From Halomonas alkaliantarctica (lineage in GTDB: Bacteria; Pseudomonadota; Gammaproteobacteria; Pseudomonadales; Halomonadaceae), in the NCBI RefSeq assembly GCF_029854215.1, contig NZ_CP122961.1, positions 496,001 to 560,000 on the forward strand: a stretch of 64,000 bases of DNA, given 5' to 3'. How positions within the stretch are numbered: the first letter of the stretch is position 1; every line of letters begins with the position of its first letter. Of this stretch, positions 59,566 through 61,413 are shown piece after piece. The notes below the pieces were generated by a model, which searched no databases, was not told where the DNA came from, and was given only the letters and a program-made list of their open reading frames with translations. A program made the translations under genes and the position numbers.

Positions 59566-59624
59566 TATGGCCGCAGCGTTGTAACGCTCCCCCTGATATA
59601 GCGTTGATAAAAAAGGAGGCTAAC

Positions 59625-59753
59625 ATGGCCCATCACGACGAAAACTTTAAAGACAATTCTGGTTTCCTGTCCATCTTTCTAGGCTTGGTGGTACTGGTAA
59701 GTATGAGCGCGCTGCCCGCGACGATTGGCGTGATTCAAGCTTTTGGCGGTTGA
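59625..59753 (+). CDS. Small membrane protein, 42 residues
   Basis: Begins MAHHDENFKDNSGFLSIFLG and has one hydrophobic helix of about 26 residues (FLSIFLGLVVLVSMSALPATIG). A strong AAAGGAGG sits five bases before the ATG, which argues for real translation. 59 bases after fre, in a possible ubiD-fre unit. I do not recognise it. Probably a single-pass inner-membrane peptide. Confidence 0.65.
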   Translation: MAHHDENFKDNSGFLSIFLGLVVLVSMSALPATIGVIQAFGG

Positions 59754-59879
59754 GTATTGCCATTTGCAGCGCTTGCAGGCAGGATTAAACCTTAGCGCCA
59801 TGGCGGTAGCCTTATCACAAGCGCTTTACTTGGGCTAGCGATTGCCAGCGTAACTAACAGAATCTAACGGAATATGGGC

Positions 59880-59990
59880 ATGCAGCGACTAACCACACCA
59901 GATACAGTGAATCCACCGCTAGAATTGGTTGGTGGTTTTGCGTTTTATGGGTATTGGTTTAGCCACGGTGTGCCCCTGGCCGACGCCTAA
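59880..59990 (+). CDS. Aromatic amino acid leader peptide for DAHP synthase
   Basis: 36 codons with GFAFYGYWFS at residues 19-28: six aromatic residues (F20, F22, Y23, Y25, W26, F27) in eight codons, using all three aromatic amino acids. It stops at TAA 59988-59990, inside a hairpin, 44 bases before a terminator-like hairpin. The only gene downstream is a DAHP synthase. A weak GGA lies eight bases before the ATG; another in-frame ATG is two codons upstream. Ribosome stalling at 59937-59960 would report Phe, Tyr and Trp supply together. Inference from pattern; no homologue checked. Confidence 0.6.
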   Translation: MQRLTTPDTVNPPLELVGGFAFYGYWFSHGVPLADA

Positions 59991-60054
59991 CGTCGCGCCA
60001 CCAGGCACACCACTCGGTTGCCTGCCGCAAGCACAGAAGCCCCGGTCGGTAACC
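59967..60054 (+). promoter_or_regulatory. Alternative RNA structures of the aromatic attenuator
   Basis: Hairpin A pairs GGTGTG and CCTGG (59967-59979) with CCAGG and CACACC (60001-60011), around the leader stop. Competing with it, CAGGCA (60002-60007) pairs with TGCCTG (60019-60024). An antiterminator pairs 60016-60027 with 60043-60054 (11 pairs, two of them G-U, one mismatch) and excludes the terminator hairpin. Early stalling would favour A plus antiterminator; a ribosome at the stop would favour CAGGCA:TGCCTG plus terminator. Pairings are visible; the logic is inferred. Confidence 0.5.
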
Positions 60055-60076
60055 CCGCCGGGGCTTCTGGCGTTTT
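60034..60076 (+). terminator. Terminator-like hairpin upstream of DAHP synthase
   Basis: CAGAAGCCCCGG pairs perfectly with CCGGGGCTTCTG (12 pairs, 12-base loop). A TTTT run follows after three bases, so it is not fully canonical. It could end the fre/small-protein transcript or act as the attenuator terminator; these are not exclusive. Confidence 0.65.
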
Positions 60077-60151
60077 AGAGCCCCAGCGATGTATAGGCTG
60101 AGCGATTTTCGGCAATAGTTATTCATCATTATTTCATCAAGGAGCAGCATC

Positions 60152-60313
60152 ATGATTTATCGCGCACTGACTAACGCTTTCGCTACCTATTTTGTGGGTA
60201 ATGGCTATAGCTGGCGATTTAGCGACGCGCGGTCGGTGCTAGCTACCACCTCCGACCGTGTTCACTTGGGTGGTCACACAACCATACGATGTCACACGAT
60301 CGCGGAGAGTTAA
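60152..60313 (+). CDS. Second aromatic-rich leader ORF
   Basis: 53 codons with a strong AAGGAG eight bases upstream. Residues 9-24 (AFATYFVGNGYSWRFS) carry F, Y, F, Y, W, F. It ends with TAA two bases before the DAHP synthase ATG, so the two should be translationally coupled. After the aromatic stretch, CGGTCGG (60230) can pair with CCGACCG (60252), or ACCACC (60245) with GGTGGT (60269), but not both. CTCCG (60250) can also pair with the synthase ribosome site CGGAG (60303). Either a second leader or a short coupled protein. Confidence 0.45.
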   Translation: MIYRALTNAFATYFVGNGYSWRFSDARSVLATTSDRVHLGGHTTIRCHTIAES

Positions 60314-60315
60314 TC

Positions 60316-61413
60316 ATGAATGCGCCTGTCAGCCCTGTTATTAATAAAACTGTTGTAACCAATGCCCACGCTACTGCTCGACTAACGCCTGCAGCGCCTG
60401 AGTCAGTTGCCAAGCGGCTGCCTACCCCCGCCGAGCTCCGGCAACGTATTGCGTTAAGCGATCCGCTTATTGAGCAAATTGCCCGTCAGCGCCACGCCGT
60501 ACAGCAAATTTTGAGTGGTCACGATGATCGCCTGCTTGTTGTCGTTGGCCCTTGCTCCGTTCACGATCCCGATGCAGCGCTGGAGTACGCGGATCGCCTG
60601 GCTGCCCTAAGCGAAGAGGTCAGCGAACGTATTTTGCCGGTCATGCGTGTCTACGTTGAGAAACCGCGCACCACCGTGGGCTGGAAAGGGCTGGCTTACG
60701 ATCCAGATTTGGATGGTAGCGGCGATATGCCCCGTGGTTTGGCGCTCTCTCGTGAACTGATGCATGCCGTCGCTGCTCGCGGCCTGCCGGTGGCTACCGA
60801 GCTCCTACAGCCGATGTTGGCGCCCTATGTAGACGATTTGCTGAGCTGGGTAGCCATTGGTGCGCGCACCACCGAGTCGCAACTGCACCGTGAGCTGGCC
60901 AGCGATTTGTCAGCGGCAGTGGGGTTCAAAAATGCCACCAGTGGCGATGTACAAGTGGCTATCGATGCCATGAGTGCGGCGGCCCATCCGCACCAGCGTT
61001 TCGCGGTAGACCCGCAAGGTTACCCAATCGTCCAGCAAACGGCAGGCAACCCGCACACCCACGTAGTGCTGCGTGGCGGGCACGGCGAGCCGAACTATCA
61101 GGCACAACACGTACGTGCGGCAACCACCGCGCTGCGTAATGCCGGGCAAAACCCGCGGCTCATGGTGGATTGCAGCCATGCCAATGCGCGTAAAGACCAT
61201 CGCCGCCAGAGTGAAGTAATGCTGGATGTATTGGCGCAGCGTCAGGCAGGAGAAGCCAACCTGGTCGCGCTGATGCTGGAAAGCCACCTGTTCGAAGGCA
61301 AGCAGCCGCTAAAACCTGGCGCGATGCGCTACGGCGTATCCGTCACCGACGCCTGCGTGGGCTGGGAAACGACCGAACACTTACTCAAAACGGCTGCAGA
61401 TCGCTTGGCGTAG
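60316..61413 (+). CDS. aroG: 3-deoxy-7-phosphoheptulonate synthase, type I (AroF/G/H family)
   Basis: Condenses PEP and erythrose 4-phosphate, the first shikimate pathway step. 365 residues, about 15 longer than E. coli AroG, with a Thr/Ala-rich N-terminus. LLVVVGPCSVHDPDAALEYADRL, VEKPRTTVGWKGL, IGARTTESQLHRELAS, VGFKNATSGD and MLESHLFEGKQ are the family's active-site segments. Which amino acid inhibits it cannot be told, so the symbol is by family. The ATG at 60316 follows GGAGAG; an upstream in-frame ATG at 60289 overlaps the leader ORF. Confidence 0.93.
   Translation: MNAPVSPVINKTVVTNAHATARLTPAAPESVAKRLPTPAELRQRIALSDPLIEQIARQRHAVQQILSGHDDRLLVVVGPCSVHDPDAALEYADRLAALSEEVSERILPVMRVYVEKPRTTVGWKGLAYDPDLDGSGDMPRGLALSRELMHAVAARGLPVATELLQPMLAPYVDDLLSWVAIGARTTESQLHRELASDLSAAVGFKNATSGDVQVAIDAMSAAAHPHQRFAVDPQGYPIVQQTAGNPHTHVVLRGGHGEPNYQAQHVRAATTALRNAGQNPRLMVDCSHANARKDHRRQSEVMLDVLAQRQAGEANLVALMLESHLFEGKQPLKPGAMRYGVSVTDACVGWETTEHLLKTAADRLA

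Follow-up and report, generated by a model that had tools for sequence, protein, structure and literature searches.

A putative pan-aromatic attenuator, homologous to the P15 RNA, and a second aromatic leader ORF upstream of a DAHP synthase gene in Halomonas and Pseudomonas-type genomes

The window, i.e. the whole stretch of 64,000 nucleotides of Halomonas alkaliantarctica DNA that was analysed, contains an aroG-type DAHP synthase gene that is preceded by two short ORFs and a series of potential RNA stems. The initial annotation had named this gene as the next biosynthetic gene and as the first enzyme common to the three aromatic amino acids, and the profile matches agree (TIGR00034, PF00793). 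The nearest named relative is Halomonas sp. EAR18 (65% in AroG), which fits the Halomonadaceae. The features are as follows.

59874 to 59990, + strand: ORF of leader peptide 1; start at ATG 59874 or, more likely, 59880, stop codon TAA at 59988-59990
59937 to 59960, + strand: aromatic codon cluster of leader 1, F-A-F-Y-G-Y-W-F (from sequence and codon counts)
59936 to 60064, + strand: sub-threshold match to Rfam RF00627 (P15) over the full model length; 27.2 bits, E 0.0017, gathering cut-off 70 bits
59967 to 59979, + strand: segment X, predicted to pair with C; its start is 12 nt beyond that of the Trp codon (59955)
60001 to 60011, + strand: segment C, predicted from pairing and covariation to pair with X (starved) or D (replete)
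60016 to 60027, + strand: segment D, predicted from pairing and folding to pair with C or E
60034 to 60069, + strand: predicted intrinsic terminator hairpin of 12 bp, followed by GCGTTTTAG (covariation, folding)
60043 to 60054, + strand: segment E, predicted to pair with D as antiterminator; shares bases with the 5' arm and loop of the terminator
60139 to 60144, + strand: Shine-Dalgarno sequence AAGGAG of leader 2 (from sequence)
60152 to 60313, + strand: ORF of leader peptide 2, 53 codons and a stop; ends 2 nt before the aroG ATG
60212 to 60223, + strand: leader 2 codons TGG CGA TTT AGC (Trp-Arg-Phe-Ser), nearly invariant over the first nine bases
60230 to 60258, + strand: pseudoknot stem 1, 60230-60236 with 60252-60258; 97.5% of cells paired
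60245 to 60274, + strand: pseudoknot stem 2, 60245-60250 with 60269-60274; every cell paired in 40 sequences
60316 to 61413, + strand: aroG-type class I DAHP synthase

The ORFs, the codons, the stems and their position before the gene are shown by comparing sequences. Between the upstream gene and leader 1 there is a short hydrophobic ORF (59604-59753, + strand; translated from an internal ATG it reads MAHHDENFKDNSGFLSIFLGLVVLVSMSALPATIGVIQAFGG). The sole above-threshold Rfam match in the window is an ordinary feature, a t44 RNA (RF00127, 32952-33058, + strand, 73.4 bits). The promoter scan found no promoter on this strand, a search of up to 330 nt ahead of the leader 1 motif revealed no TyrR-type box, and the leader region had no match among plasmid records.

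The terms "same genus" and family are used here as labels of the genome collection; 60 of the 61 same-genus genomes were used (G066 was left out). The Pseudomonas-type set consists of L003 and L072-L149, including two MAGs named only Gammaproteobacteria. Eight duplicate loci and the paralogue L002 were removed before the motifs were counted. The alignments comprised 44 of 60 loci (A1), 43 of 79 (A2), 40 (A3), 40 of 58 (A4) and 37 of 79 (A5).

The initial annotation described leader 1 as a 36-codon ORF with six aromatic codons in eight, covering Phe, Tyr and Trp, and with a weak ribosome site. All of this holds: 36 codons are counted from the second ATG (38 from the first), which is the start kept in relatives such as L028 and L029, the six codons lie within 59937-59960, and the Shine-Dalgarno sequence is poor in the window genome. 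In six nearby genes including aroG (1984 residues) the maximum is 3 aromatics per 8-residue window and 5 per 12. The end of the cluster, TATTGGTTT, is nearly invariant. Of 142 upstream loci, 141 gave a match to the codon motif Tyr-Trp-(Phe/Leu), and the one miss, L071, carries another aromatic run; the motif match of L026 is a false site, and its true leader was located separately.

Phe, Tyr and Trp are all present in the 12 codons ending at the motif in 59/60 same-genus loci, the sole exception being the false site of L026, and in 79/79 Pseudomonas-type loci. The mean number of aromatic codons per 12 is 5.2 in the former (60 loci; lowest true value 3, in L009) and 6.15 in the latter (79 loci; lowest 5). 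The aromatic residues change their order but remain as frequent, and this suggests that it is the composition that is selected. The Pseudomonas-type leaders use TTT 195 times versus 21 for TTC and TAT 177 times versus 14 for TAC, the rough background calculated from long ORFs on both strands being 19% TTT and 22% TAT. No third-position excess was detected over the length of leader 1. ORFs with at least 5 aromatics in 12 residues precede 3 of 20 order-level DAHP synthases, which gives a background value, and none precedes the paralogue L002. The peptides of leaders 1 and 2 had no match in Pfam or NCBIfam. Protein databases contain 122 and 86 relatives of the Pseudomonas peptides of leaders 1 and 2, respectively; where named, they are called hypothetical or uncharacterized protein, and one record adds the name of an unrelated transporter.

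The 3' part of the leader 1 ORF overlaps segment X, and the RNA that follows can adopt alternative pairings. The 12-bp terminator-like hairpin and the competing antiterminator of the initial annotation (60016-60027 with 60043-60054) were both recovered as described, the hairpin being formed by 60034-60045 with 60058-60069 (-29.2 kcal/mol). The 231-nt region folds at z = -4.9 in comparison to 200 shuffles. The T run, already noted as short, is so in the window genome, and many relatives have longer ones; owing to the poor Shine-Dalgarno sequence and the short T run, the hairpin was not listed by the consensus terminator scan.

The initial annotation had proposed, as a check, to look in relatives for a conserved codon run and covarying stems. 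This is largely what we see: the codon run is kept, as counted above, and covariation is found for X:C, for C:D between genera and for the terminator, whereas the antiterminator covaries weakly. X:C and the inner stem together have 92.6% of cells paired and 5 pairs with changes on both sides. The inner 8 pairs of the terminator are paired in all cells (40 sequences), and 4 of them show changes on both sides. Between genera, the terminator and C:D together have 44 double-change cells versus a shuffled mean of 13.5; within the genus, covariation of C:D is absent. In 44 same-genus sequences, 98.1% of the cells of the 11 D:E pairs are paired. Its double-change pairs were matched by 77/500 shuffles and its covariation score by 6/500; in another alignment the corresponding values were 197/500 and 61/500.

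We infer translation, stalling and the direction of control from this arrangement. Leader 1 would be a ribosome-mediated transcription attenuator that senses charged tRNAs of three kinds at once, namely those for Phe, Tyr and Trp. With one of the three in short supply, the ribosome would stall in the aromatic cluster and X would pair with C; D would then be free to pair with E, no terminator would form and aroG would be transcribed. If all three were plentiful, the ribosome would reach the stop codon and cover X, so that C would pair with D and the terminator would form. For Pseudomonas, folding predicts an extra hairpin between the aromatic codons and the region of the stop codon, by which termination would be restored if the leader is not translated.

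The effect of ribosome position was investigated by folding the RNA ahead of the ribosome, i.e. a nascent transcript that ends before the 3' arm of the terminator. The ribosome edge was assumed to lie 12 nt downstream of the A-site codon's first base, this codon being Trp in the starved and the stop codon in the replete state; L026, L150 and L151 were left out. By folding, the antiterminator is likelier in the starved than in the replete state in 59/59 same-genus and 79/79 Pseudomonas-type sequences. The replete state still favours the antiterminator at equilibrium in 17/59 same-genus sequences, the window included, where its probability is 0.90; for the window to terminate, C:D (-12.2 kcal/mol) would have to form first, while the RNA is still being made. 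That the probability falls so little in the window itself is the chief weakness of the argument for an attenuator. In the starved state, C:D is ahead of the antiterminator in 16/79 Pseudomonas-type sequences. Shuffling X cuts the mean starved antiterminator probability from 0.88 to 0.28 and from 0.74 to 0.17, and shuffles as good as the real X were 5/708 and 25/948. We note that the probabilities depend on where the nascent end is placed, the Pseudomonas mean being 0.40 in one test and 0.74 in another.

The distribution of the antiterminator probability along the codons was calculated for leaders with the commonest stop distance (57 same-genus, 73 Pseudomonas-type), positions being given relative to Tyr. 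In the Pseudomonas-type leaders the mean is 0.45-0.73 at codons -4 to +2 and at most 0.24 outside them, and these codons are aromatic in 94-100% of the sequences, except codon -1. In other words, the antitermination zone predicted by folding coincides with the aromatic codons in Pseudomonas. In the same-genus leaders the probability is at least 0.76 from -5 to +2, goes down to 0.35 at +3, directly past the last aromatic codon, and lies at 0.30-0.50 between +3 and the stop. Upstream codons give high values as well (0.56 at -14), meaning that by the folding model these leaders, unlike those of Pseudomonas, would tend to be read through when there is no translation.

The same data bear on the number of amino acids that are sensed. 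The most constant codons are the last three, Tyr-Trp-Phe, and in the AroR leader of Corynebacterium glutamicum aroF (Neshat et al. 2014) the sequence Phe-Tyr-Phe answers to Phe and not to Tyr, as summarised in PMC11802643. A leader that responds in practice to one amino acid only, e.g. Trp or Phe, is thus conceivable here. We nevertheless consider it unlikely, as all six aromatic positions lie inside the predicted Pseudomonas antitermination zone and the leaders remain rich in F/Y upstream of YWF even where the order changes.

The RF00627 match in the window came from an Rfam scan at a relaxed threshold. Scanning 58 relatives gave 20 matches, i.e. 19 same-genus ones below the cut-off (28.8-37.8 bits) and one above it, located upstream of a DAHP synthase 58% identical to the window's. 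In 20/20 further loci the match is above the cut-off and directly upstream of the gene. The 21 genomes recorded as Pseudomonas, Stutzerimonas, Halopseudomonas or Denitrificimonas all exceed the 70-bit cut-off (21/21; they are part of the 23 genomes behind named loci, and P. aeruginosa is not among them), with a single match each except for two in S. chloritidismutans. Halomonas sp. EAR18 has no match and Kushneria indalinina one below the cut-off. In the S. chloritidismutans genome (L072) the two matches are equal and on different contigs, unlike in the other 22 genomes. The RF00627 model begins inside the aromatic codons. By sequence, the window element is judged to be a homologue of RF00627, not a member by the curated cut-off, and the Pseudomonas version of the leader 1 element is P15 itself.

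A model of the element was built from 40 sequences and used at a threshold of E <= 1e-6. One match per genome was found in 132/151 genomes of the window's family and in 113/148 of the Pseudomonas-like family (that of G056), some of these genomes being model sources. We looked at 39 of the 54 negatives, i.e. 19/19 in the window's family and 20/35 in the G056 family. Seven of the 39 have a close orthologue (66-69% identity), and all seven carry a diverged aromatic leader 1, e.g. CYRAGYWRWF or YWFGFTWYWF. The remaining 32 comprise 31 with more distant DAHP synthases alone (46-52%; G651 has one 54% fragment besides) and one with none. Identity alone does not settle orthology, since L211, L212 and L217 have a leader motif upstream. 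Of 369 genomes drawn from across the class, 44 gave a match at E <= 0.01. The six matches above 45 bits are all before a DAHP synthase (G000 and G056 are model sources), and no DAHP synthase was found near the 24 other fetched loci. Two loci of family f197 (L177, L179) have leader 1 and a terminator before a DAHP synthase, without the leader 2 motif; L179 has, by eye, another short uORF that overlaps the gene start.

RF00627 is entitled "Pseudomonas sRNA P15", and its function was called unknown in a 2017 paper, which describes its overexpression in P. fluorescens lacking hfq (PMC5627042). It was detected as RNA in P. aeruginosa by Livny et al. and missed by a later screen, according to the relevant part of PMC2375449. 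Detection as an RNA is what premature termination would give, and the released short RNA could hold a second role besides attenuation. The window element and P15 are alike in sequence, position and terminator; P15 is catalogued as an sRNA, and the cited passages on it mention no leader peptide or link to an aromatic gene. The catalogue entry and the hfq effect (PMC5627042) would suit a trans-acting sRNA whose terminator lies before aroG by chance of place, with incidental aromatic codons. We regard this as very improbable: high-scoring matches, where the surroundings were viewed, sit upstream of a DAHP synthase gene, almost all genomes contain just one match, match-less genomes mostly have no close orthologue, and the model itself starts inside the aromatic codons. 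Moreover, P15 had already been suspected to be a riboswitch from synteny, as stated in part of PMC2527527.

Leader 2 (MIYRALTNAFATYFVGNGYSWRFSDARS...), absent from the initial annotation, lies between the terminator and aroG and has a good Shine-Dalgarno sequence. The motif TGG-(C/A)GN-TT(T/C) precedes the gene in 139/141 loci and is missing in L007 and L070; it is also missing in L207-L210, where leader 1 is retained. The codon CGA is kept in 136/137 loci and TTT in 137/137. The 12-mer count of leader 2 leaves out L025 and L060, in which a false site comes first, and that of leader 1 leaves out L026. A modest third-position excess is seen in leader 2. L217 has a leader-2-like ORF (MPYATYYAWPIQWRFSHL...) at -173 to -50 from the start of the protein match, and the DAHP synthase downstream of it is 50% identical to the window's.

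Downstream of the motif an H-type pseudoknot can form, with 7 bp in stem 1 and 6 bp in stem 2 (40 same-genus sequences). In these, stem 1 has 9 double-change cells, a value reached by 0/500 shuffles, and stem 2 has 3, reached by 2/500. In 37 Pseudomonas-type sequences all cells of stem 2 are paired, with one double-change cell (19/500 shuffles), and stem 1 has a mismatch at one pair in 34/37, with 84.9% of cells paired versus 85.5% in shuffles; this alignment (A5, 37/79) was picked for carrying the pseudoknot segment, so that its counts are no measure of how widespread the structure is. The stutzeri- and citronellolis-type Pseudomonas sequences shown lack the pseudoknot. In a plain fold the leader 2 region is only slightly better than shuffles (z -1.58). 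The distance from the first base of the Phe codon of leader 2 (60218) to the beginning of stem 1 is 12 nt, which would put stem 1 at the front of a ribosome decoding Phe.

In most of 41 Pseudomonas-type sequences the interval from the stop codon of leader 2 to the Shine-Dalgarno sequence of aroG is taken up by a stable hairpin, which suggests coupling to aroG translation; the hairpin is weak in L141 and L147. Leader 2 would be placed to influence translation, its stop either adjoining the aroG start (same genus) or being separated from it by this hairpin (Pseudomonas). We infer that leader 2 probably acts on the translation of aroG. When nine loci were folded in several ribosome states and compared by eye, no consistent change was seen at the aroG ribosome site.

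Two specific routes were considered. Frameshifting from leader 2 into aroG came into question because the pseudoknot follows a near-invariant codon run; it was rejected, as the frame relation differs among relatives (the ORF ends at -2, -3 or -4). Sequestration of the aroG Shine-Dalgarno sequence by CTCCG of leader 2 occurs in the fold of the window and is not claimed, because it was not seen by eye in the other eight loci folded.

Leader 2 might also have no regulatory role, being a real small protein or the relic of a duplicated leader. Many Pseudomonas records predict it as a hypothetical protein, and the third-position excess and the absence of the motif from six loci that keep leader 1 (L007, L070, L207-L210) point the same way. 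On the other hand, it is the nucleotide sequence that stays constant, including the minor codons CGA and TTT, the pseudoknot overlaps the reading frame in many genomes, and its length and C terminus differ widely, which makes a mere protein or relic rather improbable. H-type pseudoknot architecture is also used by riboswitches, and leader 2 holds one. Even so, a metabolite-binding riboswitch or a T-box in place of ribosome-mediated control seems hardly credible to us: no Rfam riboswitch or T-box reaches the threshold in the window, and the predicted switching of leader 1 is explained by ribosome position.

Taken together, we consider leader 1 a pan-aromatic transcription attenuator and leader 2 a second aromatic uORF placed to influence aroG translation, with a probability of about 0.85. 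The pan-aromatic reading of the initial annotation is supported; what it observed is right but falls short of the whole, as the element is also P15 and there are two leaders instead of one. More tentatively, and with somewhat less than even odds, the locus may hold two successive pan-aromatic sensors, the P15 attenuator being followed by a translation-level sensor. In the latter the ribosome would pause at the near-invariant Trp-CGA-Phe, exactly against the H-type pseudoknot upstream of the aroG start. Such a two-stage gate with a pseudoknot as the second switch was not found in the literature searched.

The trp, phe and his attenuators of E. coli have a leader ORF rich in codons of the end product, alternative hairpins and an intrinsic terminator before a biosynthetic gene, and leader 1 resembles them in these respects. 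It differs in that three amino acids would be sensed at the first shared enzyme and a second leader follows; the same-genus form, by folding, also does not have the hairpin that restores termination in the absence of translation. The trp and phe attenuators are summarised in part of PMC11802643. Leader control of a DAHP synthase is known from C. glutamicum, where the sections cited describe AroR as a leader peptide attenuator at aroF (PMC11802643, PMC4046766); as described there, AroR has no Trp codon and no second leader, and it belongs to a distant phylum. Given this precedent, the novelty lies in the pan-aromatic, two-leader form. The uORFC-13-1 motif upstream of Acholeplasma aroF (24 examples) likewise combines, at a DAHP synthase gene, a predicted uORF containing Phe with a terminator after it; in the cited entry of PMC8632094 it is a prediction with Phe only, from one named genus and environmental sequences. 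Leader-based control was also predicted for Shewanella aroF and aroH (PMC2659441, in the passage cited). The tandem attenuators of Salmonella mgtCBR share the feature of two short ORFs in one leader, but the gene and the signals are others and, in the part of PMC3641672 that describes them, not aromatic.

The literature searched, which was mostly outside subscription journals, does not describe this leader for either Pseudomonas or Halomonas. The analysis offers a function for the orphan RNA family P15. It also proposes how the first step of aromatic biosynthesis may be controlled in Pseudomonas and Halomonas, two groups that attract interest for the production of aromatics. It would extend attenuation to a sensor of three amino acids. 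The prediction is that, when Phe, Tyr or Trp becomes scarcer, the P15-sized RNA would fall and aroG mRNA would rise.
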